Shown here: positions 1,815 to 38,344 of the stretch, piece by piece
How positions within the stretch are numbered: position 1 is the first letter of the stretch
How the letters are laid out: each line of letters starts with the position of its first letter
DNA from: Zygnema cylindricum
Taxonomy: Eukaryota; Streptophyta; Zygnematophyceae; Zygnematales; Zygnemataceae
Reading direction: 5' to 3'
DNA length: 64,000 nucleotides
Assembly (NCBI GenBank): GCA_037447655.1
Contig: JBBHKE010001283.1
Coordinates: 62,001 to 126,000 of the forward strand
Program-made: the position numbers and the translations under genes
Notes under the pieces: generated by a model
The model's database searches: none
What the model saw: the letters and a program-made list of their open reading frames with translations, nothing else
What the model was told of the DNA's origin: nothing

Positions 1815-1815
1815 A

Positions 1816-8613: not shown

Positions 8614-8616
8614 AGT

Positions 8617-16170: not shown

Positions 16171-16657
16171 GAGGGCCCACTGCCCGGGTTATTGGCATTG
16201 GAGTCCTCCACTCAACCTTCCCCAGAATGCGAATGCTCCCCACAACAATGCTTGTGCCCAATGTTGTTCGCCTTGTTCCTGTGAACATGCATGCAAAGGT
16301 AGGGATGAGTGCTTGGGGAGGGCGAAAAAATATTCCCTTCCCCCTCTCCTTCACCCCCCCAGGCCGGAGGAAAGGAGGGAATCCTTAGAGGTGGAGCCGG
16401 GTCCTTGATTTCAGAGGAGGGCCCACTGCCCGGGTAATTGACATTGGAGTCCTGCACTTAACCTTCCCCAAAATGCGAATGCTCCCCACAACAATGCGTG
16501 TGCCCAATGTTGCCCGCCTTGTTCCTGTGAACATGCATGCAAAGGTAGGGATGAGTGCTTGGGGAGGGCGAAAAGATATCCCCTCCCCCCTCTCCTTCCC
16601 CCCCTTGGCAGGGGGAAAGGAGGGAATCCTTAGAGGTGGAGTCGGGTCCTTGATTTC
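16171..16657. repeat. Two tandem 246-bp units at the 3' edge of Gypsy-3
   Basis: Unit 1 is 16171-16416 and unit 2 is 16417-16657. They share the starts GAGGGCCCACTGCCCGGG and ends GGTCCTTGATTTC and are about 90 percent identical by eye. They lie just beyond a purine-rich tract on the minus strand (AAGAGGGGGGGAAA, about 16655-16668), so they are either part of the Gypsy-3 3' LTR/UTR or an older repeat next to it. Confidence 0.85.
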
Positions 16658-16705
16658 CCCCCCTCTTAGTCAACTGTGACTAATACTTTCGAATGATTAA
16701 CCCCC

Positions 16706-16861
16706 TTATTCGCAGTTCCCGCAGAACCAGAGAGCAGAGGGTTTAGGACGAGGGTTCCAAGAGGAGGGGAGACAAGATTGATGGCAACACTGGTCGCATT
16801 GATCACAGACCAGTAAAGAATTCTGGGAGGAAGATGAGAGGCATTCGGAGGAAAACAAAGG
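16706..16861 (-). CDS. PHD-like finger at the C-terminus of the Gypsy-3 integrase
   Basis: Last ~50 residues of a 104-residue open frame (16706-17020). Its first half, KVVEVSNKGVLTLEGKDGRR.., resembles the SH3-like C-terminal domain of gypsy integrases. The end reads LLVCDQCDQCCHQSC then, 14 residues on, WFCGNCE. This is the PHD pattern C-x2-C-D-x3-H-x2-C followed by W-x-C-x2-C. The first zinc pair is incomplete: only one Cys (SSEC) lies upstream, so one ligand is missing in this copy. PHD fingers bind histone H3 tails. By analogy with chromodomains on chromovirus integrases, this module could direct integration to particular chromatin; that role is inference. Confidence 0.7.
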   Translation of the reverse strand, partial: PLFSSECLSSSSQNSLLVCDQCDQCCHQSCLPSSWNPRPKPSALWFCGNCE

Positions 16862-18030
16862 GGGGTCATCAAAATAGGTAAGGTGAAAAGTAGGTTTGTC
16901 TTCCAATCCCTGGAGGTGACAGGGAGCCACATTGATATGATTTTCCTTGATTCTCCGCCCATCCTTCCCTTCAAGTGTCAAGACCCCCTTATTGGAGACT
17001 TCCACTACTTTCAAAATCACCCTTCTCGCTCAAATGTCCAGAGTGTCCTTTTTCTATTGTATCCGATACACGAAATCCCCAAGCAGAAATCGCCTTTGCC
17101 GCGCGACAAAATCCCCGCTGCGGCGTTGCGAATACCAGAGTTGATCTTGGTGCTGAGCTGCTTGTAAATTCCCCATGGCCAGAGGCATTTGCCGGTGAAA
17201 TACCTTGGCCCTGTCGGCAATCAATTTTTCGACCGTTCCCTAACTGTCCATCTCCGGATGGACCACTGCTTGGGCCGAGGCAGCGCCGAGGAGATGGGAT
17301 GTCGTCTGAACAAAATGAAATATGGACTGTAGGAGTGGAGGGATGCTTGCCGGCTGAATCGGTACCCCATGGCGATCCAAGGCACCCTTCTATCCCACTC
17401 TCCTAGATCCTCTTCCACAACATATTTACGCAGTGACCGCTTCACTCTCTGCACGAACCTTTCGTCCAAATCGTCGGCTTGTGGGTGGTCTCGGCTGGTC
17501 AGCCCGTGGTCGATGAGGCATAATTCCAACAAGTTGGAGAATTCTCCCGTAAATTCGGAGCCCTGGTCGGTCAGAACTTCGAATGGGGCCCCAAATTGGG
17601 ACAACACTCTCTGCAAGAATGCGTCCGCAATCGCCTTGGACTCCTTCCTGGGTAAGACCACCAATTCGATCCACTTGGAAAAATGCTCTATCATTACCAA
17701 TACAAAGCTGTTCCCTCATCGGCTAGTTGGGAGAGGACCTAGCAGATCTAGAGACCACCAATAAAACATTCCCCTGATAGGAAGGGAATGAAGCTGAGCA
17801 CCTCCCTTTTTGTCGAAAAAATGTTTTGACTCGGTCACAGCAGGAACACGTCTGCACAATCGGAGGAACATGTCTGCACAATCCAGTTGACTTGGGTCCG
17901 CAACCTGTGCCACCAGTACGATCCGGTGACCAGGGAGGTAGTCCGTTTCTGCCCAAAATGACCACATTGTTGGTGAAGTCGAAAAAACAAGAGTCTCCCG
18001 GTCAGTCGGGGGAGGAACCACTTTCCTCAT
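16862..18030 (-). pseudogene. Gypsy-3 integrase
   Basis: The zinc-binding end is DMFLRLCRRVPAVTESKHFF (17716-18030; degraded from a Cys pair). The core follows: DLLGPLP near 17740 with the first Asp, EHFSKWIEL, VLTDQGSEFTGEF with the second Asp near 17580, and SRDHPQADDLDERFVQRVKR with the catalytic Glu near 17455. All three acidic residues are visible. Between 17020 and 17221 the frame shifts and shows stops, so the chain is broken before the C-terminal domain. It would insert the element cDNA into chromosomal DNA. Confidence 0.8.
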
Positions 18031-18068
18031 CCCGTCCGCCCACTTGCGAATTAAAATACCGGTGAAAA

Positions 18069-18398
18069 CTACACCCTAGACAAATGGGGAAGAGGGGAAC
18101 CTTGTGGGATAGATTGAAGGGCATCAGGGAAATTCCAAATGTCTTTCCGCCCGGCCCCTATTGGCGCCTGCCCCTCCACGTCTGCAGAGAAAGTTGGCAT
18201 TTCCCCCCCATATTGAGGAAGCGAAATAAAGGCAGAGGAAGCTTGAATGAGTCCCAAACTGATTTCAGGATCCTCATCATGGCGGGTCCTTGTGGAATCT
18301 CTAGTGGAAGGGTCAGGATTTTTGCTAAGTCCGTCGACATTCCCATGAATCTCTCCGGCCCGGTGGATTATTTCGAAGTCATATTCCTGCAGTATTAA
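18069..18398 (-). pseudogene. Gypsy-3 RNase H, C-terminal part
   Basis: Minus-strand translation from the Copia-C junction reads LQEYDFEIIHRAGEIHGNVDGLSKNP, the standard end of gypsy RNase H just before integrase. It is the continuation of the 24853-25569 segment, from which it is separated by Copia-C. Further reading is into a Gln/Pro-poor linker toward the integrase zinc domain. Confidence 0.85.
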
Positions 18399-19446
18399 TG
18401 TAGAAACTAATGGTTTTAAAGTATTTTTTAGGCTTGAATAGAAATAAAGAAGCCGAGGCAGTCTACCTCTAACTTCTCTCTCCAACTCTCAAACTTGTCG
18501 CAGTCACTGAGAAATTGGAGAGGAAGCTAGAGCCATGGCTACCTAGGCTATCCTGAGGTTTACGGGAAATTTATACTAGTTTAGGGATTATGTACTAAAA
18601 GGTAATCCGGCCACAGGATTTGATCCTGGTACCTGCCGGCCGACAGATAGAAGATAGCCGGTAGCCTTAGCCGTTAGGTCTACAAGTAGTCTTACGTAAC
18701 ATATAGTACGATATTAATTTAAACATTAATACGTAGGTTAAATCATTTAACTGTAACTGTGTACGGTATACATAGATCCGGTAATGTATAAGTACGGAAT
18801 TCGGTACATTCACAAAATCAATATCGCGCATTTTATTTAGTAAGTGAAACGAATATCGCGCATGTATTTATGACGGCTACGATTAAATTAGATTCTAATC
18901 GGACGGCTGGAATTAGCGCCGAGATCGCGGAGGAAGATTTCGGCGGTTTGTGGTCATCGCCACATCGGATGACGCGTGGCGAAATTACGTTGGATCGTGG
19001 AATCTCCGGAGATTATGGCACCGAATCCGGATATGACATGTGTCGACATTTGGGACATGTCGTACAATGTTCGTACATAAAGTACACTGGCAGCTGTACT
19101 TTTGCGTACGGAACTGTATTCTGATTGGTTCCGTACATCAGTAGATAGAGTCTGTGAGAGAGATAGGACTTAGAAAAATTAGGAGATAGGACCCCTCTCT
19201 CCCAGAGAGCTTCTGTACAAAAGGTCAACTTTGACCCTTCATAACTTACTGCTCAGGGGAGCAAATTCAGAGATTCTTTTTGCTATTGACTCAAGGGATT
19301 CTTGTCTTCACAGGGGTGAAGTTGGTCAGAGTTTTTGTCTGCCAGGGTGGCAGTTATTTTTGCTTAAACACAAAGGGATCAGGATTATCCTAGAGGCTTC
19401 TTGGAAGCTGTCCACTCTTAGGACTTATGGAGGTCTCAGAGTTTCA
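18399..19446 (+). repeat. 5' LTR of Copia-C
   Basis: 1048 bp, nearly identical to 23800-24847. The GTAC-rich core is at 19060-19113 and the tRNA-like antisense block at 18601-18684. Confidence 0.95.
18601..18684 (-). other. tRNA-like sequence antisense to the Copia-C 5' LTR
   Basis: The minus strand reads TAACGGCTAAGGC (A-box/D-arm-like) and CCAGGATCAAATCCTG (T-arm-like hairpin with loop ATCAAAT). CCGGC..GCCGG can enclose the hairpin. The copy in the 3' LTR is at 24002-24085. Confidence 0.5.
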
Positions 19447-19459
19447 GGTTATGGGCCCA
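19447..19459 (+). promoter_or_regulatory. Primer-binding site, half-tRNA type, Copia-C
   Basis: GGTTATGGGCCCA abuts the LTR. It is the exact complement of the initiator tRNA-Met anticodon arm (TGGGCCCATAACC). The ATG at 19451 inside it is the in-frame start of gag. Confidence 0.8.
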
Positions 19460-20104
19460 CCCTCTAGGGTACCAATCTTTAATGGAACTGGCTTCATATA
19501 CTGGGAAAGTATGATGATAGGAGCTCTATGCGAAAAAAGGTTTTGGGGGATAGTGAGTGGACGATTGGGGCGTCCATCAAGTCTTGGAATTCCTCCAGGG
19601 TTTAAAGGAAGCAGATTCACCAGGAAAGAGGATTCACCTTCAACGGAGGAAACAAAGGAAGGAGAGGTGGTGGACAAAGGAAAGGAGAAGGAGGCGACCA
19701 CACCAATAGCAACTGGTTTAGCATTCATGTCACCTATTCCGAGGAACGAGGAGAATGATACTGAAACCTGGGACTTCAACAATATGGCGGCAAAACACTT
19801 CATCCTACGCCATCTCACTCAAGGACTTGCATGTCTTCATTTGCAGGTAGAGAGGGCATCCGATCTTAGGATGGCTCTTATAGAGATGTACCGAAGTGGT
19901 ACGATTCAGCAACAACAGTTGGCTGATCAAAAAGTTAAGGAGTATGTATACAAAGGGGGAAATATGTTGGATTTTTGCAATGAGCTTGCTACACTCTTCA
20001 TGGAGCTAGAGAGTGCGGGTAAAGTTTTTAGTGAAAAAGAAAAGGTTAACTGTTTACTAATGAAGTTACCTGATGAGTTCGAGAACATAGTCAACCGTGT
20101 GTAG
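19451..20104 (+). CDS. Copia-C gag
   Basis: About 217 residues from the ATG inside the primer-binding site (MGPPSRVPIFNGTGFIYWES) to a TAG at 20102. The N-terminal FNGTGFIYW motif and the central ENDTETWDFNNMAAKHFILRH..LADQKVKEYVYKGGNM are characteristic of copia gag (UBN2/DUF4219 type). It forms the virus-like particle. The TAG falls where Copia-B has QEMPDSSW, so it is most simply CAG to TAG. The ATG at 19427 is in the same frame but inside the LTR, so 19451 was chosen. The zinc knuckle lies downstream in another frame (20172-), so a frame change separates it from the particle-forming part in this copy. Confidence 0.8.
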   Translation: MGPPSRVPIFNGTGFIYWESMMIGALCEKRFWGIVSGRLGRPSSLGIPPGFKGSRFTRKEDSPSTEETKEGEVVDKGKEKEATTPIATGLAFMSPIPRNEENDTETWDFNNMAAKHFILRHLTQGLACLHLQVERASDLRMALIEMYRSGTIQQQQLADQKVKEYVYKGGNMLDFCNELATLFMELESAGKVFSEKEKVNCLLMKLPDEFENIVNRV

Positions 20105-20171
20105 GACTTGCCGGACTCAAGGTGGATATGGAACTCAGTGGTAGGGATGATTCTCGTTCGAGAGAGTACGA

Positions 20172-23100
20172 TTGAGATCCGAAGGGGAGGAAAGAGTGGC
20201 CAAGCCTTGGCAACAACGACCGATTGGAGGAACAAGGATTCCCGAAAAACCAGTCGGAAACCATGGGGGTAGGGAGCAAAAAAAACAGGTTAGCGAGTTC
20301 GAACCAAGGGCTCCCAAAGGTTTATGTCATTTTTGTAAGAAACCGGGGCACTATATGGCAGAGTGCACCAAGCTAACCGAGCTTCGGTTAAAGGAGGGGC
20401 AGACCGGTGGTACCCCGAGAGGAAAGAAAAAGACCCTTGTCACACAGGTACTTGAGGCGGAATCCGAGGACGAGGACGATGAGCTCCTTTTGGATGAGGA
20501 GTTGAAGGCGAAAACTGAGGTTGAAATTCCACGAAGGCAGAAATGTGGTTACGGTGGATTCAAAGGTGAACCAGGCTGGATTATAGATTCAGGTGCCTCA
20601 ATGCACATGTGTAAGGATAGGCACTTGTTCACTAAGATAAGAAAGATTCCCACCGTAGAGATAGAGTACGGGGATGGGAGGATAGTCACCACTACTCTTG
20701 TAGGATCGGTAGATCTCAAAGTGTTAGTAGAAGGAAAGACATCCATAATAACATTCTCCGATGTTTTGTTTATCCCGGAGCTGAACAAAAACCTTATCTC
20801 TACATCTGTATTAGATGATAAGGGTTTTTTTACTAGCACTAGGGAAGGAGTCTTTACTGCTAGTTTTTAGGAGGATGTCTATTTAATTGCTGTCAAAGGT
20901 AGCGATGGGATGTTTAGGCTGATCTTAAGTAATGAAACGAAGAAACTTTATTATGCTGGTGTTCATGATATTATGATGTGGCATAAGAGGCTTGGGCATG
21001 TGAATCTAGATAAGTTAAGAGAGATGAAAAAGATGGGAGTGGTGGAAGGGATTCAGTTCAGTGAGAGTGATGATATAAGTGATTGTAGTGGGTGTGCTCA
21101 AGGTAAAGCACACAGATTACCCTTTCCAAAAACAGCCACCTACAAGGGAGAAAAACTTCTAGATCTAGTACACACAGATATTTGGGGACCGGCTAGAGTG
21201 CCCTCACCGGGGGGGAAGAGATTTATGATGACTATAGCTGATGATTGGTCTCGGTATTCCCGAGTATATTTTTTGAAAAACAAGTCAGAGGCTGAGGACT
21301 GTTTTAGACAATATAAAGCATGGAGCGAAAAACTCCATGAAACTCCAATCAAGAGAGTAAGCAGTGACAATGGTGGAGAGTATACTTCTAACCAGTTTGA
21401 GGATTTTTTGAGGGAAGATGGGGTTCAACACCAAAAGACTGTTCCAGAAAATCCGGAACTGAATGGGGTAGCTGAAAGGTTAAATAGAACACTAAGTGAT
21501 AGTGCTAGAAGTATGTTGTCGGATAAGAAGATAGGAAAAAGGTTTTGGGCAGAAGCAATGAACTGTGCTAATTACCTCAAAAATAGAGTTCTTAAATCAG
21601 CTATAAAAGATCAAACACCTTATGAGAGATAGACATGCCGGAAACCAGACTTATCTCATTTAAAGGTTTTCGGCAGTCAAGTATTCAGTCTAGATACAGA
21701 TCGGTCTAATTGGAAGCTAGATCCTAAAGGAAAACCGGGATACTTATTAGGATATGATGAGGATATTAAAGGATATAGAATTTATGATCTAAAAAGAGAA
21801 GATATAATCTTAGTAAAGCATCTAGTAGTTATGGATGAAGGAAAGTCTGTGGATCCCTTCAAATATACAAAGTCAGTAAAAATCAGATTTGAGTCAGAAA
21901 ATTCTGATGACTTTGAGCTTCCTAACTATCCAGGTTTTAGAAACGATGACATTCTTGCAGGTACAAATCAGAGTGAAAAGGACTCGGCTGTGGAAACTCC
22001 AGTGACAACTCTACCCGAAGCGGAAGACGTGGTGGAAATTGACTCGGAATCAAGAGATAGGGGAGAAACTGAGTTTGTTCGAAAGAATCCACGAGAACCA
22101 TCTATTCCGGCCTCAGATTTTGAGGGGGGAAGGAGAAGTAGTAAAAGACTGCAAGAAAAACAGGTTAATAACAAGGTAACTAAACTATCTCATCAAGATG
22201 AACCTCAAACTTATGGAGAGGCGATGCCTTGTCCAGAAAGAAATCGGTGGAAGACAACCATCAATGAAGAGATGGCCTCAATTATGGCAGCCGATACTTG
22301 GGAGCTGGTGGATTGTCCACCTAACCGAAAACCAATCGGTTGTAAGTGGGTTTTCAAATTAAAACTGAACCCAGATAACACAATCGAGCGCTACAAGGCC
22401 CGACTAGTGGCAAAGGGATTTACACAAAAGGAGGGAATTGACTACGAGGAAACCTTTGCCCCAGTGGTCAGATTTCCCTCCGTCCGCATACTTCTCAGCT
22501 TGGCAGTAGCGGAAGACATGGAAGTGCACCAGATGGACATCAAAACAGCCTTTTTGCATGGAGAATTGGAAGAGGAGATCTTCATGCGACAACCCGAAGG
22601 GTTTGTGGAAGAAGGAGAGGAGAGTAAGGTATGCCGGCTGATTAAATCTCTATATGGTTTGAAACAGGCGCCTTGACAGTGGAATAAGAAGCTTGATGAG
22701 TTTCTTACCGGTCTGGGATATATCGGGATCAGCTCAGATCACTCAATCTATGTTTTCGAAGATGAGGAAGGTTTTATATTTATTGCAATTTATGTTGATG
22801 ATTTGCTTGTTTTAAGTAAATCAATGGAAAAAATTAATAAACTGAAAAGCGATCTTAAGGGGAGATTTGAAATGAAGGATATGGGGGAAGCAAAATATAT
22901 TTTGGGAATTCAAGTAGAGAGAGACCGAAAAAGAAAAATTATAAGATTGACTCAAAAGGAAGCAATAGGGAACATGCTTGAAAAGTTTCAAATGGATAAA
23001 GCTAATAGTTGTACAACTCCAATGGAATTGAAGAAGGGAAGTGAGGGGAGTGAGGAAGAAGGAGTCATAGTCTTAGACGAGGAATTATCTCCTGAAGAAC

Positions 23101-23786
23101 AAAAGTTCATGCAGACTATTCCTTACAGGCAAGTAGTGGGAAGTCTAATCTATTTTATGAATTGTACCCGACCGGATTTAGCTGCAGCTGTAGGAGTGCT
23201 GAGTAGAAGTCTAAATGCTCCCACTAAGAAGGATTGGGAGGCAGCTAAGAGAGTTCTTAGATACTTGATAGGAACTAGGGATCTATGGTTGCATTTGGGT
23301 GGGGAGAATACTGACATCACTACTTGGAGTGATGCTAGTTATGGTGATGCTCCGATGAGGAGATGCACTTCTGGATATGTATTATATGTGGGTGATGGGG
23401 CTTGCTGTTGGAGTAGCAAACAGCAAAAGGTTATTGCTCAGTCCACCATGGAGGCTGAGTATATGGCCTCTTGCTCTGCTGTAAAAGAATTGATGTGGGT
23501 CAAGTCTTTACTTGGTGAACTTGGTCATCTTAAGAGTGGTGTGCAGAAAATATTTTGTGATAATCAAGCAGCAATCGCTATTTCTGCCAATCCTAAACAT
23601 CATTTTAAAGCTAAACACATGGACATTAGACTCAGCTTTGTTAGAGAGAAAGTAGAAAATAAAATAATCAGTTTAGAGTACCGACCAGATAGTGAGATGG
23701 TAGCAGATATGATGACCAAACCTCTGCCTTCCCCTAAGCTAATTTTCTGCAGGGAGAAGTGTGGTCTGAAATTAAAGATTGACTAG
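20172..23786 (+). pseudogene. Copia-C pol polyprotein with in-frame stops
   Basis: All parts lie in one frame: zinc knuckle CHFCKKPGHYMAEC (20325-20366); protease with intact DSG near 20586 (WIIDSGASMHMCKD); integrase zinc domain HKRLGHVNLDKLREM..CSGCAQGKAHRLPFP (about 20980-21130); integrase core with the first Asp in VHTDIWGP, the second in SSDNGGEY and the Glu in VAERLNRT; reverse transcriptase with DYEETFAPVVRF and YVDD at 22791-22802; RNase H (23280-23640, TWSDASYGDAPMRRC, MEAEYMASC, DNQAAIAI). Stops lie at 20868 (TAG), 21630 (TAG) and 22675 (TGA). Against Copia-A and Copia-B the latter two replace Trp and Arg codons. Catalytic residues are otherwise intact, so inactivation looks recent. 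Confidence 0.9.
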
Positions 23787-23799
23787 AAAATAAGGGGAG
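23787..23799 (+). promoter_or_regulatory. Polypurine tract of Copia-C
   Basis: AAAATAAGGGGAG directly abuts the 3' LTR and is conserved in Copia-B (13714-13726). It is the expected plus-strand primer of reverse transcription. Confidence 0.85.
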
Positions 23800-24847
23800 T
23801 GTAGAAACTAATGGTTTTAAAGTATTTTCTAGGTCTGAATAGAAATAAAGAAGCCGAGGCAGTCTACCTCTAACTTCTCTCTCTAACTCTCAAACTTGTC
23901 GCAGTCACTGAGAAATTGGAGAGGAAGCTAGAGCCATGGCTACCTAGGCTATCCTGAGGTTTACGAGAAATTTATACTATTTTAGGGATTATGTACTAAA
24001 AGGTAATCCGGCCACATGATTTGATCCTGGTACCTGCCGGCCGACAGATAGAAGATAGCCGGTAGCCTTAGCCGTTAGGTCTAGAAGTAGTCTTACGTAA
24101 CATATAGTACGATATTAATTTAAACATTAATACGTAGGTTAAATCATTTAACTGTAACTGTGTACGGTATACATAGATCCGGTAATGTATAAGTACGGAA
24201 TTCGGTACATTCACAAAATCAATATTGCGCATTTTATTTAGTAAGTGAAACGAATACCGTGCATGTATTTATTACGGCTACGATTAAATTAGATTCTAAT
24301 CGGACGGCTGGAATTAGCGCCGAGATCGCGGAGGAAGATTTCGGCGGTTTGTGGTCATCGCCACATCGGATGACGCGTGGCGAAATTACGTTAGATCGTG
24401 GAATCTCCGGAGATTATGGCACCGAATCCGGATATGACATGTGTCGACATTTGGGACATGTCGTACAATGTTCGTACATAAAGTACACTGGCAGCTGTAC
24501 TTTTGCGTACGGAACTGTATTCTGATTGGTTCCGTACATCAGTAGATAGAGTCTGTGAGAGAGATAGGACTTAGAAAAATTAGGAGATAGGACCCCTCTC
24601 TCCCAGAGAGCTTCTCTACAAAAGGTCAACTTTGACCCTCCATAACTTACTGCTCAGGGGAGCAAATTCAGAGATTCTTTTTGCTATCGACTCAGGGGAG
24701 TCTTATCTTCACAGGGGTGAAGTTGGTCAGAGTTTTTGTCTGCCAAGGTGGCAGTTATTTTTGCTTAAACACAAAGGGGTCAGGATTATCCTAGAGGCTT
24801 CTTGGAAGCTGTCCACTCTGAGGACTTATGGAGGTCTCAGAGTTTCA
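23800..24847 (+). repeat. 3' LTR of Copia-C
   Basis: 1048 bp, pairs with 18399-19446, and is followed by the ATTAA target duplication. Its antisense tRNA-like block is at 24002-24085. Confidence 0.95.
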
Positions 24848-24852
24848 ATTAA

Positions 24853-25569
24853 CACCCACCTGGTGAGCTTGCTAGTGAGCTTGCTGTTCTCCACAATCCA
24901 CTTGAGAGGTTGGTGATTAGTGATCAGAGTGAAATGGACTCCGTAAAGGTATGGTCTGAAGTGTTGGATGGCCCATACCGCCGCCAGTAATTCCCCGTGA
25001 TAGCTGTTGTAATCCCCCTCCGCTCGGTTATTACTCCTATTGGCGTAAGCTACCACATATTCGGCCCCAACATTATCCAGTTGTGCTAAAACAGCTCCCA
25101 ATCCAAACCGACTCCAATCAGTGTAAAGGAGGAAGGGTCTTTGGTGATCAGGCATTCGGAGCACTGGGTGTTGCTTCAGGGAATCCTTGAGGAACTGGAA
25201 GGCAATCTGTTGCTCCTCCGTCCATTGCCACTGCTGGTCTTTCCGCAGCAACTGGTTCAGAGGCTGAGCGTGGTTGCTAAATTCATGGATGAATCTCCGA
25301 TAATAGTTAGCTAGGCCTAAAAATGTGCGAAGTGCAGAGACGTCTTGAGGAGGGGGAAGGGCATCAAGGGCTGCAACTTTGACCATATGGGGACCCAATG
25401 TCCCGGGTGTAACTTCGTGTCCCAGGTAAATAATTTCCTGCACCCTAAAAATTCCTTTGCCCGGGTGACATTTCAAGCCCGCTGCTTGGAGGGCTCGGAG
25501 TACAAATGTATGTGCTCCAAGTGTTCCTTGAAGGTCTTCGAGAAGATAATAACATCGTCGATATAGCAC
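24853..25569 (-). pseudogene. Gypsy-3 reverse transcriptase end and RNase H, N-terminal part
   Basis: The frame reads KCHPGKGIFRVQEIIYLGHEVTPGTLGP, FLGLANYYRRFIHEFS, then RNase H: PFLLYTDWSRFGLGAVLAQL, with the first catalytic Asp in YTD, and EGDYNSYHGELLAAVWAIQHFRPYLYG with the Glu. It ends IVENSKLTSKLTRWVL at the Copia-C junction (24852) and continues at 18398. The frame is displaced relative to the YIDD segment (25473-25658) by an indel near 25510. Confidence 0.85.
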
Positions 25570-26200
25570 CGTGCACAGTCAATCCCCGGAGCGCCTCGTC
25601 TATGGCACATTGGAATTTGGCTCGCGCATTCTTCAGCCCGAATGGCATGTAGAGCCATTCATACAACCTGGACCCTGCCCAAAAAGCTATCCTTTCCCGG
25701 TGCTTTGGCTCCATCGTGATGTGGTGGAACCCATTATTCCTGTCTAGTGTGGAGTAAATGCTGGCCCCGGCCAACGAGTCAAAAATATATTCCGGGGTAG
25801 GCATTGGGTATCGGTCAGGTATAGTTGCCGTGTTAAACATCCGGTAATCTCCACATATCCGAAAGTCTACCGTTTTCCCAGTAGAGTCTTTCTTGGGTGG
25901 GAGAACGGTTGGAGACGCAAATCCATGGAGTCTTGTATTTTCCTGCACCAATCCTGCTTCTACCAGAATTTGTATCTTTGCCGTGATGAACACATTTTCC
26001 TTGAAACTCAGAGGGTATTGCTTCTGCCAAACAGTAGACGTCTCGTCAATTAAATCGATTCAAAAAGGGGTTTCTTTGTAGATGCCTACGTCGGTATCTC
26101 ACCAGGAGAACACTAGGTTGTTTTTTTTCAACAGGTCGGAGAGCTGGGCCTTTTGGTGAGGGTCCAACTGCTCCCCTAAGGTCCAATCCATCTTTCCGGG
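25445..26200 (-). pseudogene. Gypsy-3 reverse transcriptase (fingers and palm)
   Basis: The N-terminal linker (GEQLDPHQKAQLSDLLKKNN near 26170) leads to VEAGLVQENTRLHGFASPTVL, VDFRICGDYRMFN, YSTLDRNNGFHHITMEPKHR (first Asp) and YEWLYMPFGLKNARAKFQ. The CYIDDVIIFSKTF catalytic motif near 25560 is displaced by a frameshift after ALRGLTVHG. The domain copies element RNA to DNA. Relative to the methyltransferase frame there is one indel near 26215 (CCCCGG run). Without it the chain runs from methyltransferase straight into this domain. Confidence 0.85.
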
Positions 26201-26201
26201 T

Positions 26202-27499
26202 TCAACCGCTGCCCAAGCCTCCGGGGTCTACCCAGCGGGAGATATTGAATTCCATCCCTACCTGCGAGTTTACCTCTTCTCCTCTCGTTAGAATGCTACT
26301 GCTAACAACTTCCGCTAAGCTGTCCTTTTCCGAGCCTCCGCTCCCCCCCACTGAGGAATCCCCTAATTTCGGTAAAATGCTGGGATTGGAAAATTTTGAT
26401 GATAAAAACTGTTTTCGTGCCTCCCTCCCCCCCTCAAGCTGCAAGTGGGCCTGCTCCGCTAAAAACTTTGAAGCTTGAAGGTAGTTATCCCTCGATTGCG
26501 AAGACTGCAGGCTAGATAAGGCCAGAGAATGTTTAATTACCCATGTTATTGCATTAAGATCCATGCTTTGTCCGAGTAGGCTGCACCGCTGAAGGTCTGA
26601 AATACCTAGTGCCGCTATGCTGGCAGGTTTGAATCCCATGGCTTGTTCTCGTTCTTCCACCGTTGGCGTTGTCCAAACTCCACTTCCGCTGTCAAATATC
26701 ATTTCGGCCGCTCCCTTTCGATATGCATGGCTATTGGGGAAGGAAACCAATGTTAATAGTGCTCGCCGTGGTGTTCGTGGTTTTTTGCACTGGAAGAACG
26801 GAGGACGATCAGCCTTAGTTACTGGAGTGGCCATCTGCCTTGGCCCTAAAATTTGTTGAAGGGTAATCTGGGGATCTGTTTTGTGGTTTTGTTAGAGCTT
26901 GTTCAGGACTGTCAGAGGTATCAAATTGGTCCAGTACGCCCGCACTCTGTGAGCCCTGGATCCCAGTTGTGCTACATAGAAAACAAGTGGAGCTCCTAGA
27001 ATCTGCTTGACTTCATTCCAGCTATTTGCGACTTGTTTTCTCTTATCATCTCTTGGGTGGACATTCTCAAAAACGTACCCCACTGGTTGGTCTTGGGACT
27101 GCTGCAGCCAGGAAAGTAATTTGATCATGTGGAAGAAGGTTCGACTTCTACTGTCCTGATGTCCCTCGCCTTTCCCTGCTAAAGAGTATCCTTGACAGGG
27201 CCATCCTGCAATCACCAAATCTACTCGCTCCAGCATAGCGAGATGTGGCTTCAAGATATTGTCTATATTTTGCGGGACACTTCTGTGAGATCTGCAGATG
27301 GCGGATACCAGAAGTTGCTGGGGATACAATTGGTGGAGTTGTTGTAATCGGTATTCACTGATTGCCTGAGCATCCGGTGAAATTTTCACGGCCACATATG
27401 ACTCAACTTTATGCCCAGCTTTCAAGACAGCTTCGAGGTCCGAGCTAATTCCAGAAAATAGGAATAATATCCGGAGTCCACAATCCGGATAGATAATGA
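26202..27499 (-). CDS. C5-cytosine DNA methyltransferase domain embedded in Gypsy-3 pol
   Basis: Motifs in order on the minus strand: motif I ILFLFSGISSDLEAVLKAG (SAM-binding FSGI, about 27480-27420); motif II region YVAVKISPDAQ, with Lys where the family has Glu; motif IV DLVIAGWPCQGYS with the catalytic Cys (about 27195); motif VI YVFENV (about 27075); motif VIII AHRVRAYWTNL (about 26940); motif IX WTTPTVEEREQAMGF (about 26675); motif X LLGQSMDLNAITWVI (about 26550). The order and the short target-recognition region match DNMT3/DRM-size catalytic domains, and AHRVRAYWTNL resembles DNMT3 motif VIII, although PCQ rather than PCN is unlike them. One in-frame TAA near 26894 splits the domain; the frame is the same on both sides. 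After motif X the frame runs on toward the reverse transcriptase N-terminus (EFNISRWVDP), so it belongs to the polyprotein. Confidence 0.85.
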
Positions 27500-28150
27500 C
27501 ACCCCTTCTCGATTGAATATTTGATTGTCGGGCGGAACTTCTGAAGATTCCAACCGAGGTTCTTTTTCCTTAACAAAAACAGATGTGAACGATTTGTCCA
27601 CTTCCCGCCGAAGTCTTGTTATTTGTAATAATCTGTTCTGGTATCCCTCTTCCCACCGCTTGAAAATAGGGAATTGCTATATTATGTCTGCGATATAGGT
27701 GGCGCTGGCGAGCAATTCTGTGGGTGTGTGGGTGGCATAGACGGGATAACATCTGGCGACAGAGGCATTATCTTTCCCCCTATTCCATAGATCCAGGGGA
27801 ACCACCACCTTGACCCCTTCTAGATCCTCAAGATCCCAAACAGTAAATTGCTCCTGCCACACACTTAATCCCATATTCACCCTTGTCTAAGTGGCCATTC
27901 CCAATAAAATCTCAAACTGCTTACCTTCCACCACCATGAAGGGAAGTTGAATTCTGACCTTTTGACCTGCGTCGTTGTCGAACTCTATTAACATAGCTTT
28001 GATTATTCGGTGTACCGGTTGGCTCCCACTGCTAACAGTACTTAGGCATATGTCATTGGGAAGCTTTCCGGTCGGAGTTCTTCAGGCATTTGCCGCAGAG
28101 CCGATGTGGTGTTTAGATTTGGGAGTGCTTCTGTATCGACAACTGCGTCT
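27500..28150 (-). pseudogene. Gypsy-3 aspartic protease and linker
   Basis: Around 28127-28138 the minus strand reads AVVDTEALPNLN, at the place of the retropepsin ASP-T/S-GLY motif. Gly is replaced by Glu, so the active-site turn is damaged. About 80 residues on, with frame changes, FEILLGMAT (near 27910) is the flap/ILLG segment, followed by VWDLEDLEGVKVVVPLDLW (about 27820). The stretch 27500-27700 is a charged linker (REVDKSFTSVFVKEKEPRLE) that joins protease to methyltransferase. The protease would cleave the polyprotein. Confidence 0.6.
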
Positions 28151-28161
28151 TGATACCCGCC

Positions 28162-28956
28162 CTATCCGTTAAGTTTGAAATTCCCTGTCCGGTTGAGAAT
28201 TAGCGCCACAGAAAATGTTTTGTAGTCTCTATCCATCATAGGGGTCTTTGGGTCTGCTGACCAAAAAACGGATCTGGCCTGATCGGCCCGGTATTTCTCC
28301 CCTCCTGAATGGATTTCCTCTTCGAGGGCCTGGATGAGAACCTCTTCCGGCAAGTTATGAGAATAGGCTAGTGTTTTCACGTGAGTGAGAGCGTAGGGCA
28401 TTAGATGCCTTACTAACATCACTGTTGGTTTGGAGGAAGGAGGTTGAATTTTTGACGAAATGGGGGAATCTGCTGGTTCCTCCGGTTGATTTTCCTTCCC
28501 CCCCCCCTTTGCTTCCTCGCTTTCTTGGTCGGATTCTGGCGCTGGCGGCGTTTCTGGCGTGTTATCCTCCGGGCGTTCCGCCAAATATTTTTGGAACGAG
28601 TCTTGGTTGTCACGCGTCTTTTCCTCCTTTGCTTGTTCCTCCATCTTCTTTCTTTTAGTTGTCCTGTAATTTTCGAATCCGGGAGGGAGTTTCTTTGCGG
28701 CTGGTGGAGGTGGGTTTGTAGATTTTATCGCGAGACCTATTTTGTCTTTCAGGATGACAGCCCTGGGGGTGAAGGACAGAGGTCTAGTAGCGTTTCTGTT
28801 GTGGTCTCCTGGAGCGAGCTTTTGCCTGTCCCTTTGCTGCGCCAAGGTTGAGTTACAGAGCTGCCTGTGATTGTCCCCCACCCTGACATTCCAGGCTCCA
28901 GAAAGGAAGGTCTGTGCGTGATGTGCCTTATGAGGTTCCATGTCCCACCCCATCAC
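28162..28956 (-). CDS. Gypsy-3 gag-pol region of unknown function
   Basis: A 264-residue open frame immediately upstream of the protease. Residues about 90-165 are strongly charged and Pro/Glu-rich (KRKKMEEQAKEEKTRDNQD, PEDNTPETPPAPESDQESEE), predicted disordered. The C-terminal 90 residues look folded (VRHLMPYALTHVKTLAYSHN..MMDRDYKTFSVALILNRTG) and lead into the protease. No known domain was recognised. It ends in a stop at 28162 just before the protease motif. Confidence 0.5.
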   Translation of the reverse strand: MMGWDMEPHKAHHAQTFLSGAWNVRVGDNHRQLCNSTLAQQRDRQKLAPGDHNRNATRPLSFTPRAVILKDKIGLAIKSTNPPPPAAKKLPPGFENYRTTKRKKMEEQAKEEKTRDNQDSFQKYLAERPEDNTPETPPAPESDQESEEAKGGGKENQPEEPADSPISSKIQPPSSKPTVMLVRHLMPYALTHVKTLAYSHNLPEEVLIQALEEEIHSGGEKYRADQARSVFWSADPKTPMMDRDYKTFSVALILNRTGNFKLNG

Positions 28957-29528
28957 CTCGTCATCGTCTTCGCCCGCTGCGGTTTCCTGTTCAAGCTTTG
29001 CCAGCTTCTATACTAATTCGTGTTTTCTCCGGTGGAGTTTTTGGGCGACCGTCAAAGGAGGAGTCCTGGAGGGCGATTGTAATCCGAGTGCTGCCAATTT
29101 TGCAACCATGGCTGCCATTTGCTGGCTCTGCTGTTGGATGATAACCTCCGGGGTTAGTCGTGCTTGACCTGTCGGCTGTCGTTCCGCGTTCGCCTGGGTG
29201 CGGTGTCCTCAAGGGTAAAGAAGCTGCAGCGGGAGAGGATTCACGGCAGTTTTGCCTTCTCCGGTGAACAGTGCATATTGCATTATCTCTTTCGGAACTC
29301 CATTATTTCGATAACACTGCCCTTCCTTTAACCCATGAAACCCCAAGCCTCACACTTGGAGGCGTCAGTAGTATATTTGCCCCTCAATTCATTGGAGATT
29401 TGCGCGTCATCGAATTTTGGAAGTTTTATCTGTCGCAACTAGGCTTGCGACATCTTTGCAGTCTCAGATCGTGGAGTCGGCCAGTAATTTTCTTTGTTAA
29501 GCGGAGTTGTGCCGTCCGACCCTCCCCC

Positions 29529-30767
29529 TTATTTCCTTTCTTGTTGCTTCTTTGTCCTTTCATCTCTCTCCTTCTCCCATTCCTTTTGCTTAAGAGCTAA
29601 TTCCGGTATGAGCTTCCGGGGGCATCGCTTCCATCCATGATATGTTTGTTGACAGTTTAAATAGTTATAGAGGAAGAATCGATCATCGGCCCCCATGGCG
29701 GGTTCGGATCCGCTATCCGCCACCTGTTTCCCCTTAAGCGTCAGCAAAGCTAAGAGTTCGGCTGACTCCTCATTTTTCAGGAGGCATTTTAGATGAAAAT
29801 CCTGCAAAGTTCCCCCGGGTTTTGCCGGTTACCGCCTTTTCTTGGGCCTCTCTGTGGACGAAGTGATCATAAAGCTTCATTGAGGCCAGAGAGATTTCTT
29901 TGGCGGTTGGATTGACGTTTTGGATGGCCTGTCCCGCAATCCAATTATCGAGGGCTGCCTGCCCCGTCGGTCTGAACAAATTTCGGACGGCCATGAAGTA
30001 TTTGGTTGCCATTGCCAGGAGATCAATGGTTGAGAGATTGGTCCTTTGACAAAGGCTGGACAATCTGTTAAAAAGAGTCTGGGGAGTTTTACTCTTTTCG
30101 CAACGGAATTCCGTGAACTCTTTGATAGCAGATTCATTCCTTTCAGTGTAAAGGAGTCTCCAACATTCAAAAGAGTAGTACTAGGGGTTGGGTTTGCAAC
30201 CATCCGAATGGTCGCCCTGGCCTCGTGGATGGCCTGAAGCTGAGCGACATAGGCTTGTCCTTGTGCTTGTAGTTTCATGTCCTCTGTGAAGAGGGCGGTT
30301 ACAAGAGCGGCTGCAGCGGCAGCCAAGTTTGCTTCCGCCTGCAAGACTGCCTCATCAAGGATAAGGTCTGAAATTTTGATGCTGGGAGCCATCAGGAGAG
30401 GTTGTCGCTCCTTATAATCAGCCAAAGCGCCACAAGCAAGATAATTTACCATCATGGGGAAAAGTGTGGTTTCAAAGTCATCCGGAATGGCTCCGCCCCT
30501 ATTTTTGTTGATTTCGGAATGAGTGAAAGATTTCCACAGCAATTCAAAATCCGAGAAAGCGATTCCTAAACTATCTCTCGTAAAGATCCTTACGTCCCCC
30601 ATTTTTTTTTCCTCCCCTGCAACGGTGGTGAACTGACAAGAGGATGGTCCGGTTGGGCTAACAAACTGAACTGGTGAAATTGCCTTTGGATCTGCGTCAT
30701 CTTGCTTGGGGCCGCCTCCTTCTCCGGTAGAAGGAGCTGCTTGGCGAGAGATGGGCACCCCCCCCAA
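29529..30767 (-). pseudogene. Gypsy-3 gag (capsid and degenerate zinc knuckle)
   Basis: Overlapping frames at 29877-30767, 29770-30063 and 29529-29807 form one broken protein. The first holds a Pro/Gly leader and helical segments (DSLGIAFSDFELLWKSFTHSE, an Ala-rich helix, YVAQLQAIHEARATI). The second has helices ending YDHFVHREAQEKA. The third ends NYLNCQQTYHGWKRCP, which keeps C-x4-H-x4-C of a CCHC knuckle but has Tyr where the first Cys belongs (TAT for TGT), then a basic coiled-coil tail (KEWEKERDERTKKQ). Placement upstream of the protease supports gag. The capsid assignment is by position and composition, not by a clear motif. Confidence 0.6.
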
Positions 30768-31117
30768 TGAGGAAGTTAAAGCTACTGGTGATTTTGCGGA
30801 AAAACATGTATTTCCCTTAGGTTTATTTATGGGGAAAGAAGAGACTATCAGCTTGGGAAAAGATGTCCAAAACTTTGCTCCTCTATACCCGGGGAGGCTT
30901 GTTTTTCCCGGAGTACTGTTTTCACCGAGGGGATGTGGAGAAGAGGTTGGACCACTGGGGGTGCTTGATGGATTGGGGGAGAAAAGATTGGAGAGGACTA
31001 AGGGTTACGACAAAAAGGCGTCAGTCTCCTTGTACGCCTTTTGGAGGCCACTGGTGGAGGAGTTCCTTCGCTGGAAGCGGGAGAATGCCGATGAGGAGGA
31101 GAGTAGGCAGGGACGTC

Positions 31118-32674
31118 CTATCTATATGGTAAGAGAGGTGGGCCCGGGGATTCATTGACTGCTGCAGCCGGAGAGACGGATGGAGAAGGAGAGGATGCTT
31201 GAGGTGGTGATGGTGGAGGAGTGGAAAGTCCGAGGGAAATGTGTTGTCTCCGGTCGGGTTGTAATAACACCACGGCCTCCGCAGTTGAAGACCCAGCCAG
31301 TGAGACAAAAGTAGGACGCTCAGTGGTGGCAGCTGCAATGTTACCCGTTAGATCTGCACCCATCCCCTGTTTGTTAGGTCTTGTTGTTTCCCCCCCTTCC
31401 CGCTGAAGAGGAGACTCCGATCTAAGTTCCGAGGAAATCTCGGGAACTTGCATCTCCGTAGGGTTTGTCTGCACTGTAGGTTGTCTCTCAGCAGAGGGAC
31501 CTGTCTCTCTAGGAGGAGCTACCTGTCCACTAAGGATCCCTCATGATATTCGTCTAGCCTCCCTTATGAGGAACAATTCCTGTTCGAGGGCCCTCTTCCT
31601 CTCTTCTTCAAGAGCTTCCCAATCGATGGTGACGGGTCCAGCCCCCGCCGTAGCCTGACTCTGGGATCGCAGGTTATCAACCAGTTTTTGCGTGCTGCTC
31701 ACCATCCCTGAGAGATCCGCAATCCCGAAACCTGGTACCTCGGGATTGGTGGGTCTAGAACGCCACAACCCCTCAGATGGTCGAACCGCCGGTGCAGATG
31801 GAGACTTTGAGCTCGGAGAGGTGGAATCGGAAGGGAAGAACGGCTCCGCTTTAGGTCGGGGAGCGAACCTGCCTTTGCGGTCCCGATGATCGAACCTGTA
31901 CCCCTTCTTTGGCTTGGGTAACCCTCGCTTGCTGGTCCCTTCCCCGGCTCGTGTCCGAGGGATCGCCCCGTCGTGAGTCGGCTTGCTGGTTGCGGTGTCC
32001 TGAGATGGGGTGGGTTGCTGGTATGAAGTTGATGGTCCCCCTTGTTGCTCCGGTACGGAGGTTGAGGAGCCGCTCTCGGACAAACTGCTAAGTATCTCCA
32101 CTACACCTCCCACTGGGCGTACTACTCTGGCTCGGTCTGACCTGGCTACCCGCTGCACCAACTTCTTCTCAACCTTCAACTTATGGAGATCATGAAGGGC
32201 TAATATTTCTTTGCGACTTGGCCGGTGAGGATCGACCAGGATCTCAGGATCTATGTACATTTCAGCTTTTGGTGCCTTAGATCGGGTATAGCGACTGATC
32301 TGGGGAAGGTGACCCAGGACTGCTTCCTTGTGGGCCAACCCTTTTCTACGGCTTTTAGGGGATAAGGGCGGCCTTTCCGCCTTCTCTGAAGCCCTAGCTC
32401 TGACTGACTCGGACAACGTTGGGAAATTCTCAGGGGAAAAGACAAGGGGAGGTGGAGGAGAGAGTCTCCCCTCTGGGTGCGTTGGAGGAGTGTCGACTGC
32501 CACCTCCGGAGGCATCTCTCCTTTAAGAAACCGCTCTATGCGTACAGGTGAGCCAAAGGGGGGTGCTTCCTCGGGCACCTGTGACTCTTCCCCCTGGGCC
32601 ACCGCTTCCTGCCTCTCATGCTCGTCCGATCTGACACCCGGAAGATCCTTATCCTGAACTTCTCCTTCCCCCAT
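31118..32674 (-). CDS. Gypsy-3 ORF1, leader protein of unknown function
   Basis: A 377-residue open frame from the ATG at 32674 to a stop at 31541, followed in another frame (31118-31474) by similar Pro/Ser-rich sequence. It is mostly low-complexity, Pro-, Ser- and Arg-rich, and probably disordered. More ordered patches are KEILALHDLHKLKVEKKLVQRVARSDRARVVR and a C-terminal Glu/Arg helix (EALEEERKRALEQELFLIREA). It lies 5' of gag on the same strand, so it may be an N-terminal extension of gag or a separate first protein. No domain was recognised. Confidence 0.5.
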
Positions 32675-33960
32675 AGCTGACTGGAAAAGAAAGATCTAAA
32701 TCCCCTTATAAAAGTACTCTGATCTGAGCACCTATCCTCTTTAACCTAAAGAGACAGGTTGTTGTTTCAGTACTGTGATTATCTGTTGGAAGCCTAACAA
32801 AAATCTTCTCAAAATCCACTATTCTGGTACAAAAGATTTTGGTAATAGACCCCCGGAAGAAACCCGACCAGAGCCCCAAAAAGGATTACCAAAGAGAGAA
32901 CCCAGATCCTTCCACTCAGAATAATGAAAGGATAGAAATATAAAAATTCTGTCTCAGAATTAACAATATCACCTTGCCCTAAGAAAATAGAAATATAAAG
33001 TTAGAATGTGGAATAATAGCAAGCGAGCTCAACCTACCCCCAAAACGTAACGTGGACAACCAAAAGGAGACGAAATCTCCCCCTGAAAACCCAGGAACAG
33101 GCAAGGCCCCCTTAACTCCTCGGTTTCCGCGACCCGGAACCGGCAAGACCCTTCTTGGTTTCAAAAAAACACCAGTCCCCAAACCGCCCAAAACAAGAAA
33201 GACGGTGCCAACCACCCAACCGGACTACGATTTCCACAAAGGACGGCTGCAAACCAAGATGGCAATAGGGTGACAAACACAAGCAACACAAAAGTTCTCC
33301 ACAAGAAAGTTTGCTAGAATTTCTAGGGTTTTTCTCAGGAGACAGTACTGAAAACAACAACCTATCTCCCTCGGCCCCAAGTGCCTTATACAATCAAAGT
33401 TTGTCCTATCGATAGTACCAAAGTCAAAGCAATACCAGGAGCCAATCATTGGCTAGGAATGGTTATCATACGGACATACGACAAAACATGTTGTACTACA
33501 CTCAGGGCAAAAAGTTAGGCGACTATCTCCGGCTAGATTAGAAGCCACGTGTTTTTCTATGACACAATCCTGAGCAAAAAAGTTCTAAATTGACGTGAAA
33601 CGCCTAACTTCGACTCACATTAATAAATGCTCTACCCGGCTGGTGGACCTAAACTATCGTCCTACTGATAGCCAACAGCAAAATCTACAAGACTATCCCA
33701 AAATTTACGTGGCGTTCCACAATGTAGCCCCCAATGGGACAGTTGGCAACTGGTCACATGTAACAGGATGGTAATATTTGGAACGGAGTAACTCCGTCGT
33801 CCGGCCTCCGTTAGGCGCGAAATAAAGTGCGTACCGTTCAGTTAAGAAAATAGAAGAATCTGGTCCAGCTGAGTGCGCTCCTTTCCCCGTACTTTAATGA
33901 CCGTACAAAGGAAAAAGGCCCGGGAATCCTTGGTAAGATAAAAGGGGTGCCTGTGAAGCA
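32675..33960 (-). other. Gypsy-3 leader / probable 5' LTR region
   Basis: No coding content was supported. It lies directly 5' of ORF1. A possible LTR start TGTTACATGTGACCAG is seen on the minus strand at 33762 and GTAC motifs lie near 33885-33920, but no matching copy was found at the other end of the element, so no LTR is called. Confidence 0.35.
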
Positions 33961-34187
33961 CACGAGCTTGACAAGGAAACTGCCCTTATTATTGTTGAAC
34001 AGTTATAGCGATACACAGTGTAGTTTAAGTACTATTTCGAATCTCCGTTTTATAAAGACTAATTTTTGTGCAAAAACCAATTTACAGGTTAGGGATGAAA
34101 TTCCCTATAGATTTCAAAGCACAACAAACGTAGAGTACAAGTAAAAATATGAAACTGAAAATTACAAAAACAAATGCAAAATTAGAC

Positions 34188-34708
34188 TACATCATGAATC
34201 GCTAGTAGTATACAAAAATTATTGGAGTAAGAAATAAAATAATTTTATCAACTCTATTTTGAGTTCTACGGCCTAACGCCAACGGAAATTGACGCTAATT
34301 TATACGTAAAACACTAATTTGTATACAAATTCCCATATTGTAGCTGGCATAGTCTGTGTTCACATTGTCGACGTTTGACCATGTGAGAACATGTTAAAGC
34401 AAGTTTCCCCCGTCTTTATTTATAATAATCACATCCGAGTGCACTTTCCAGTGTCGACGTCGTTTTATGACATTTGTACGAAATAACGAGCAGTTTTTGT
34501 ATGGACTGACACATTTTGTACACCATACTACTTAAAAACAACCCAAATTAGAGTAAATGACACTAATTAAACCATACCTATATTAGCGTAAAGGAAAAAA
34601 CATGATTATTAATCCTAATTTATGTAAAAATTTAAAAATTTAAAATTTAATTAAAAATTGAAGGGCGCCGAATTAGTGTTATTAACATTAATAGCGATTC
34701 ACGATGTA
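34188..34708. mobile_element. Inverted-repeat element (MITE-like), copy 1, 521 bp
   Basis: The left end reads TACATCATGAATCGCTAGTAG, and the right end in reverse complement reads TACATCGTGAATCGCTATTA. The ends match those of the 63479-63971 element. The interior is AT-rich and non-coding. The outermost TA is a likely target duplication, which would fit Tc1/mariner (Stowaway-type) elements. Confidence 0.75.
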
Positions 34709-37017
34709 ACACTAATACCTATTCCACACCCTAAATAACATCTTTATGCAGGGGGTGGCGCGGTGATAAGTCTCGAAATCCACGATCATCGTCAGCCATC
34801 ATACTTTGTCAAACAAACACTACTCGGGCACATTGAAGGGTGACAGAGATACATTGGCCGCAGAATACCGACTTGTTGGTTGTGGAAAGGATGTGAAGCC
34901 CATAAATTAAAAAATAGTCGAGCGCAACCACGTAAGAAGTCGTTAAAAGTCGATTTCGAGGTCTCGATCTTTGACGTATATGATATGAAGTTGTATGACC
35001 CGTCTTGATGCGCCTAAGCTTGTTCTTTTAAGGACGATGTACCCCGCGCCATGACAAGCGTAAGCAATGTTGCGCATGAGGAAACATGGGATGTCATAAG
35101 TTTTGTGGGAACTAGTCACATACTGCTCTTTTTGCTTTGTCGCAAAAACATAAGATCGCCACGAGGGTTGTGAATACTGCTAAATTGAGACGTCGTTGAA
35201 GTATGTACGACGCTTTGGGTTCAACTATATACTATGCTTTGCTTCCCACAAGAGTTATTATGTCTCGTGTGCGCTTGTTCACAAATCAACGAAGCTAATG
35301 GACAATTTGCTCATCCATAGTTGACCATTAATGCAACAGGGCTTGTCGAAGATCGACAAGTGCACCAAGCCGAGGCGTACACGGAAAACCGTGGAGAAGA
35401 CAAGTGGAGGGAGGCAAAATTTGGTGAGGTTACAAGATAGGCTGCAACCCCTAGCTCTGAACAAGAGCATAGTTGGCCAATTTTCCAACCGAAGGGAGGG
35501 CCACAAAGAGGTTTTTTAAAGTCATCAAAGACTGCCTTGATCTTGGGGCCTCAACCAATGAAAGCGAACGAACAAACCATAACAAATGTCGAAATGGTAA
35601 TGGAACCTCAAACTTTAAAGACAGCATTAGCCAAAATACAAATGTCGTCCACCAGAAAACATGAAGTGACGATAAGTGCCACCAAAGCCCAACTTTCTAG
35701 GTAAGTTGCTAGTGCTACAGTGGTCGTAGGTTTCAAACAGAGATATTTCAAAATGACTTGTAAAACAGGATGTCTTCGAGCGATTAGTCTTTCCCGGCGA
35801 TCAAAAATGCCATTTTAAATCCAACTCACATTTGGATTGCTTCAAGAGCCCACATGGCGGTTCTGTATAATATTTTTGCTTCCGAGCAAAACATTTCCCA
35901 TTTCTTATCCATTAGTGACACCATTTGGACGTTCGCGCTGCGATCTTGTGAAGTATTAGTTGTTGTTTTATTTCACATTGTTATAAGCATGAAGCATCAT
36001 AACCACAAGCTCGACAGTCTGAAGCTTCGTTCCACTGTTAAATGAGCAATAAAACAGCGTTATCACCAATGCATCAATTAACACAGTTGATTAAAATATG
36101 AACATCCGATTAGACCACATCATCCACTCATTTCCGGGCGCACATATCATTATGATTGTTGCTAATTGAAAGACTCGTCACACATGATAACCACACAACC
36201 TTCTTGCTATAAAGAAATACTTTTGACATCCATTTCAATATTAACAATTTGAATAAAAAAAAAACAAGTTCCCTTGATACCACTCACTTTATAGAGAGTA
36301 TCACTTGCGCCAATTATTGCCCCAAAGGTCCTTTAACTAAGTCGAAAACAAAAAGGGACTCCTCTCGTTTCTTGATCATTTAATTGTTGTTTTGTTCAAA
36401 AACCCTAATGCAACCACTTTAAAACTTGAGCACACATACGCTGAAGGGAAAATCGCACCCTTCGTTAAATGCCATTCAGTGGAGTCAAACCACCGACTGT
36501 AAATAGTGTACAAAATTGACTTCTGGTGCCTCGAATTCAACTACGGAAATGGTGGAAAATAAATCAGTATTAAACAAAGTACAACGACAACTGAAATTGC
36601 ACTAGTAATTGAATTAGTAACCATTGTGCTTCTGCAAATTCTCTCAAACTGCAGACTCATACCGCAACATTCATTTTCTTTTTCCTTCCAAAACAAACTT
36701 TCTTCTGAAACAACGTTTTTTCCGAAACATTTTTTTTTCCAAAACAATTCTTCTTCCAAACAATTTTTCTACCGAAACATATTTTTTTCCATGTTGAACA
36801 CTGTCTAATTGTGATTCTTGCGTGAAGACCTTTTGAAACCTAAGGAATAAAACCTGTCTCAGTTACGTGTCATATATACGCGACATGACACAGTACTGCT
36901 TGGTTCTAAACGCCAAGTCATACTATGTCTTTTTGATTTTTGCAGAATAAGGACAATACATCATATTCTTGATCACCCTCGTCCACACTTTTAACATGTA
37001 TATACGAAAGGCAAATC
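34709..37017. other. Intergenic DNA without a supported gene
   Basis: Only short chance frames. A run of short imperfect repeats of the type TTCCGAAACATTTTTTTT lies at 36690-36795. Confidence 0.5.
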
Positions 37018-38232: not shown

Positions 38233-38344
38233 GTTCCTCCAGCTCTCCTACTTAAACCTAAAGTTAAATCGTCAGTTTCTCCGTTTCTCTCCTTAATCAC
38301 GCGATAAGTTGGTAACGACTCATATCTTTGACCTAACTTACATG

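Follow-up and report, generated by a model that had tools for sequence, protein, structure and literature searches.

As a rule, transposons are on the receiving end of DNA methylation. What, then, is a C5-cytosine DNA methyltransferase (MTase) domain doing inside the Pol region of a gypsy retrotransposon? The locus that raises this question lies in a stretch of 64,000 nucleotides from Zygnema cylindricum (GCA_037447655.1, contig JBBHKE010001283.1, positions 62,001 to 126,000), here called the window, and we followed it through its domains, its relatives and the published elements that resemble it.

A Dnmt3-like methyltransferase domain in the window

The MTase domain occupies 26517..27491 on the minus strand and is interrupted by a single in-frame TAA stop (26892..26894), located from the list of open reading frames (ORFs) and by string search. 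An initial annotation had recognised C5-cytosine MTase motifs in order on the minus strand, and string searches recovered FSGIS (27458-27444), GWPCQ (27206-27192), FENV (27071-27060), AHRVR (26954-26940) and GQSMD (26573-26559), which we take to be motifs I, IV, VI, VIII and the motif X region, respectively. The catalytic Cys in PCQ, ENV, the SAM motif I, the RxR of motif VIII and motif X are all there and ordered. The first half of the domain (26892-27569) matches PF00145 (E 2.4e-10), while the second half (26202-26891), scanned alone, has no Pfam match. Both halves nevertheless align in one frame with the relatives found by protein search (numbered P0001 onward), the domain of P0009 aligning from 27500 to 26535 at 46% identity. 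We looked for a better match outside this enzyme class, but in Pfam, in the PDB sequence and profile searches and by fold, C5-cytosine MTases came first each time. A chance match is ruled out by the E-values, the fold and the collinear relatives.

By profile and fold, DNMT3 appears to be the nearest class. DNMT3C, 3A and 3B were the best single-sequence matches in the PDB (5e-10 and weaker), with HhaI next (5e-5). The PDB profile search put DNMT3A/B/C on top (4e-28), followed by 4onj (6.7e-16), a listed DNA methyltransferase that is presumably a DRM, and by DRM2 (6.8e-13); HhaI and the tRNA enzymes, the latter at 2e-10 to 3e-10, ranked behind DRM2. DNMT3 also came first in the fold comparison, and the motif order of the window MTase is linear, unlike that of DRM. 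A DNMT1 or CMT origin was rejected on the weak evidence that no chain so named occurs among the 57 sequences with E <=0.01 in the profile search.

The initial annotation had also called this copy probably inactive, and both of the defects behind that claim are present. AVKI (27392-27381), in the place of motif II, has a Lys where the alignment gives Glu or Asp in the relatives, and the TAA breaks the frame at 26894-26892, so that this copy lacks both the acidic residue of motif II and a frame open throughout. The catalytic core is otherwise conserved, with 27 of the 30 columns that are invariant across 13 relatives retained. Besides the motif II residue, two family-invariant Gly are changed, to Arg and to Glu, which counts against the interpretation we favour below. 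Judged by the Lys and the TAA, the window MTase is a decayed relative and no working enzyme. CpG depletion, as a mark of past methylation, gave no clear signal, the observed/expected ratio being 0.59 in the MTase, 0.67 in the whole window and 0.65 in 36000-54000.

A decayed gypsy element split by a younger copia

The MTase sits in a gypsy element on the minus strand, whose domains we traced with Pfam and with tblastn. A gag-like region (29770..32695) with broken ORFs at 31541-32695, 29877-31004 and 29770-30180 is assigned by position only, and none of these ORFs gave anything above the Pfam cut-off. The aspartic protease region (27785..28236) has a break in mid-frame and matches P0010 at 597-655 and 661-745 in two frames (E 5e-16); its piece at 27890-28081 has no Pfam match on its own. 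Behind the MTase, a linker in the MTase frame (26205..26516, within ORF 26202-26891) aligns down to 26415 with P0008 and to 26322 with P0009. The annotated placement of the MTase between protease and reverse transcriptase (RT) agrees with tblastn using P0010 and P0008, which gives the order protease-MTase-RT. Its further claim, that the MTase frame runs on into the RT linker, held in part: beyond the end of the domain the frame stays open for about 100 residues, as far as 26205, and the linker from 26224 down and the RT lie in another frame.

The RT linker and RT follow at 25448..26224 with two stops (PF00078, 1.2e-9; P0008 464-723), and the end of the RT with RNase H at 24848..25506, up to the copia (PF17919, 3.6e-32; PF17917, 9.7e-30). 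On the other side of the copia lie the rest of RNase H with the integrase zinc finger and core, in broken frames (17293..18398; P0008 904-1293 in two frames; rve PF00665, 5.5e-10), and the integrase C-terminal part with a PHD finger and three stops (16712..17293; P0008 1294-1488). The tblastn matches of P0008 are collinear with the window across the MTase (27479-26415, 44% identity), RT (26224-25448, 57%) and RNase H (25506-24847, 70%) and, beyond the copia, at 18452-17862 (43%), in the integrase (18060-17293, 62%) and in the C-terminal part (17293-16712, 48%); the integrase core is 79% identical over 140 positions. The gypsy-type RVT_1, RT_RNaseH and rve domains are thus ordered on a single strand and split by the copia.

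Decay is spread along the whole element. The matched stretches contain one stop in the MTase, two in the RT (and one more in an overlapping third-frame match), none in RNase H, three in the RNase H tail and integrase zinc finger, one in the integrase and three in the C-terminal part, and the reading frame shifts from domain to domain. The gypsy copy is dead. An LTR pair was not found by self-comparison or by a sensitive search of 15800-17300 against 28000-40000, so the ends of the element are undefined, a further point against our preferred interpretation. No terminal repeats, DIRS-like or other, were identified, nor did three primer-site patterns point to a clear site in the gypsy.

The younger copia (18399..24847, plus strand; PF07727, PF00665) lies inside the gypsy RNase H. 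Its LTRs (18399-19446 and 23800-24847) differ at 22 of 1048 positions and it is flanked by a 5-bp ATTAA target duplication, which together show that it jumped into a pre-existing gypsy copy.

Several other features were seen in the window. A second gypsy integrase fragment (2325-2979, minus strand) is 62% identical to the P0008 integrase over 122 positions, and a gag ORF (1293-1790, minus) stands next to a perfect 12-base match (1803-1814, minus) to what we take to be the primer site for initiator Met tRNA; the stretch 1293-2979 looks like two elements abutting at, or sharing, one LTR. Immediately downstream of the PHD finger, a 248-bp unit occurs twice in tandem at 16165-16657, the copies being 93% alike and purine-rich on the minus strand; a polypurine tract and LTR edge may have been duplicated here. 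Old copia copies lie in opposite orientations at 3849-5864 and 12656-10639 (88% alike), and a satellite-like array with a spacing of about 300 bp, whose pieces are 72-98% alike, spans 54821-57650. Pfam found no host domain in six ORFs between 41670 and 51491; one ORF at 42064-42525 (minus), with no Pfam match, presumably resembles a plant Munc13-like protein.

Relatives with the same domain in the same place

A first protein search, with a 378-aa query carrying X at the stop, returned 7 proteins of limited length, and a second, in which long proteins were admitted, returned 7 relatives. All seven long relatives bear at least one other retroelement-type domain in Pfam, a proportion that is uninformative on free-standing enzymes. 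A profile search, with scoring limited to the 7997 candidates sharing most words, gave 25 matches, 20 of them new. P0001-P0004, P0006, P0007 and most of P0015-P0024 were taken as MTase matches with no retroelement partner domain shown, and P0025-P0034 (E 2e-13 to 4e-4) as weak matches, taken for free-standing bacterial-type enzymes. Protease-like stretches were seen by eye in P0015 and P0018.

A single frame runs through MTase, linker and RT in P0005 (the C-terminal half of the MTase, linker and RT), P0008 (MTase-RT-RNase H-integrase in a single 1494-aa frame), P0009 (MTase-RT by Pfam) and P0010 (protease, below cut-off, then MTase-RT), and in these four the MTase directly precedes a gypsy RT. 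P0011 reads zinc knuckle-protease-MTase, with the protease below cut-off and the zinc knuckle as its only such domain above it. In two others the MTase stands ahead of the integrase: P0012 is MTase-integrase-PHD with a Tudor-like match below cut-off behind the PHD, and P0013 is RT-RNase H-MTase-like-integrase, its MTase-like part coming after RNase H and lacking any Pfam match, PF00145 included. Glu replaces the motif IV Pro in P0013, which again weighs against our interpretation. Finally, P0014 is MTase-RT of another, possibly DIRS-like type with no gypsy integrase match in Pfam, and may be nearer the SymbioDIRS-Dnmt3 class.

Across six elements, MTase identity and RT identity correlate at r 0.83, and 3 of 720 permutations, including the identity permutation, are equally high; P0012 and P0013 were left out, as no comparable RT stretch was cut, and P0005 was counted with half an MTase. 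The MTase tree has 25 rows, with a partial DNMT3A and four free-standing enzymes as its few references; it omits the partial P0005, P0006, P0007, P0021, P0023 and P0024 and six of the ten weak matches (P0026, P0028, P0030, P0031, P0033 and P0034). The window branch is long (0.72) and its position beside P0008/P0009 (91/80) is not starred, which we likewise count against our reading. DNMT3A is on a long branch in an open fork, and deep forks are open too.

In IMG/VR, a search with P0008 gave no match. The MTase profile drew out 109 stretches in 46 loci there, matching at 26-51% identity along no more than about 180 residues, and we interpret these as phage enzymes. A scan of a prokaryote genome collection gave 21 loci from 166 stretches. 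One of these alone, L047, was assigned to the family: it matches at 38% over residues 2-325, and the other 20 cover residues 2-145 at most. All other relatives are known here as protein sequences alone.

L047 is a 9285-bp contig filed in a cyanobacterial MAG (Synechococcales, AVDCRST_MAG81). Its ends share an identical 127 bases, consistent with a closed unit of 9158 bases: a circle, or else an assembly in which two identical LTRs were collapsed into one. An unbroken ORF (3-3491) ends in a protease, below the Pfam cut-off, and the MTase; by coordinates, the ORF at 8582-9283, at the opposite contig end, is in frame with it, and gag is assigned from position. A second unbroken ORF (3492-6635) encodes RT, RNase H, integrase and PHD, so the MTase precedes the RT but sits in a separate ORF. 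Given its eukaryote-type retroelement genes, we take L047 for stray DNA of an alga or some other eukaryote, which has probably contaminated a public prokaryote genome. Related unbroken elements, P0008 and L047, occur in environmental DNA.

A PHD finger at the integrase end

The C-terminal part of the window integrase ends in a PHD finger (16712-16843, minus strand; PF00628, 7.4e-8, 32.7 bits against a cut-off of 24). This C4HC3 zinc finger covers profile positions 4-47 of 47, above the Pfam cut-off, although its first Cys pair appears incomplete. Among the five elements whose integrase C-terminal part was read, three have a PHD finger above cut-off: the window, L047 (4.3e-10) and P0012 (4.6e-10). 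The finger of P0008 scores 0.048, below cut-off, and Pfam found none in the integrase C-terminal part of P0013; both count against a PHD finger as part of our reading. The L047 finger is closest to the PHD fingers of CHD4, PHF12, UHRF1 and others, several of which bind H3 tails.

Ginger1 transposases, relatives of gypsy integrase, are known to contain PHD fingers (PMC2836005, in excerpt). Our searches of open-licence PMC papers turned up no MTase-bearing gypsy element described as having one. The excerpts of PMC6338049, PMC12344493, PMC12477816, PMC9289625, PMC9033089, PMC2836005, PMC6453930 and PMC3286476 do not describe a gypsy with MTase and PHD, and the word PHD is absent from the main text of PMC5890265.

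Discussion

With domain order and identity established from the protease onward, unbroken relatives found and a conserved catalytic core in a dead copy, we think it fairly probable that the window holds an inactivated Ty3/gypsy element of a family with an MTase and often a PHD finger, whose live members methylate their cDNA and integrate under the guidance of H3. The family would normally encode gag, protease, Dnmt3-type MTase, RT, RNase H and integrase, often with a C-terminal PHD finger. In live members the MTase would be produced beside the RT and, because of this location and its Dnmt3 class, cDNA would be its likeliest substrate; it would methylate the double-stranded cDNA of the element at CpG, before or just after integration. 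Given the PHD finger, integration may be guided by H3 tails, which the finger would read on behalf of the integrase, helping to select target chromatin. The element would arrive pre-marked, which could shield the cDNA or make new copies less costly to the host. The authors of PMC5890265 (in excerpt) proposed cDNA methylation for DIRS elements. Against our reading stands the Klebsormidium gypsy enzyme, which was inactive in a yeast test that they call inconclusive.

The alternative that survives best, which we nonetheless consider unlikely, is that the MTase is retained for a job other than DNA methylation, acting on element RNA or serving as a structural spacer in Pol. The yeast result and the loss of the motif IV Pro in P0013 would fit such a role, and RNA methylation was raised for LINE-borne enzymes (PMC5890265, in excerpt). 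The nearest class is nevertheless DNMT3 and not the tRNA enzyme DNMT2 (DNMT3A 4e-28 versus 2e-10 to 3e-10), and the catalytic Cys and most invariant columns are retained in the rows examined. Less probable again is action in trans on the host genome, silencing competitors or host genes instead of marking the element's own cDNA. This was discussed for Symbiodinium, but the methylome of K. nitens resembles that of land plants despite MTase-bearing elements (PMC5890265, in excerpt), and the place beside the RT would favour cDNA. That a piece of a host MTase gene was captured by, or nested in, a single gypsy copy with no family role is highly improbable and was rejected, since the same domain stands in the same place before the RT in P0008, P0009, P0010, P0005 and L047.

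A bolder form of the cDNA-marking reading, which we offer tentatively and think rather doubtful, is an old gypsy clade with a self-marking kit of Dnmt3-type writer and PHD reader, its copies inserted pre-methylated into chosen chromatin, its writer having moved within Pol to stand before the RT or before the integrase. An element that pairs its own deeply conserved de novo MTase with a putative histone reader would demonstrate that an element can profit from being methylated, and would offer a natural test of whether a copy can insert already silenced. P0008 and L047 provide testable unbroken enzymes in addition to the Klebsormidium and Symbiodinium ones.

Comparison with known systems

The initial annotation was right that charophytes and dinoflagellates offer precedents for MTase-bearing retrotransposons (PMC5890265, in excerpt). 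Elements of this kind have been in print since 2018, and the window adds one more to them. In K. nitens, gypsy elements carry Dnmt3 enzymes showing signs of purifying selection; these KnitGypsy-Dnmt3 elements (de Mendoza et al. 2018, PMC5890265, in excerpt) resemble the window element, compared by description alone, in having a Dnmt3-related MTase in gypsy Pol. They are described with DIRS-like terminal repeats, and no terminal repeats were found for the window gypsy. An excerpt of PMC12344493 has "LTR Copia" where PMC5890265 has Gypsy. SymbioDIRS-Dnmt3 of Symbiodinium likewise combines a retroelement Pol with a Dnmt3-type MTase, and these DIRS-borne enzymes perform de novo CG methylation in yeast, but the element belongs to the DIRS class with a tyrosine recombinase, whereas that of the window is a gypsy with a DDE integrase (PMC5890265, in excerpt).

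Among cellular enzymes, the catalytic domain of DNMT3A/DNMT3B is the best profile and fold match to the window MTase, at about 20-25% identity in fold alignments and with GGSPCNDLS in DNMT3A against GWPCQGYS in the window. Chromoviruses are gypsy elements with a chromodomain, a chromatin reader, at the integrase end. They share with the window element a chromatin-reader domain in that place, and the window element differs from them in having a PHD finger for the chromodomain and, in the same element, an MTase.
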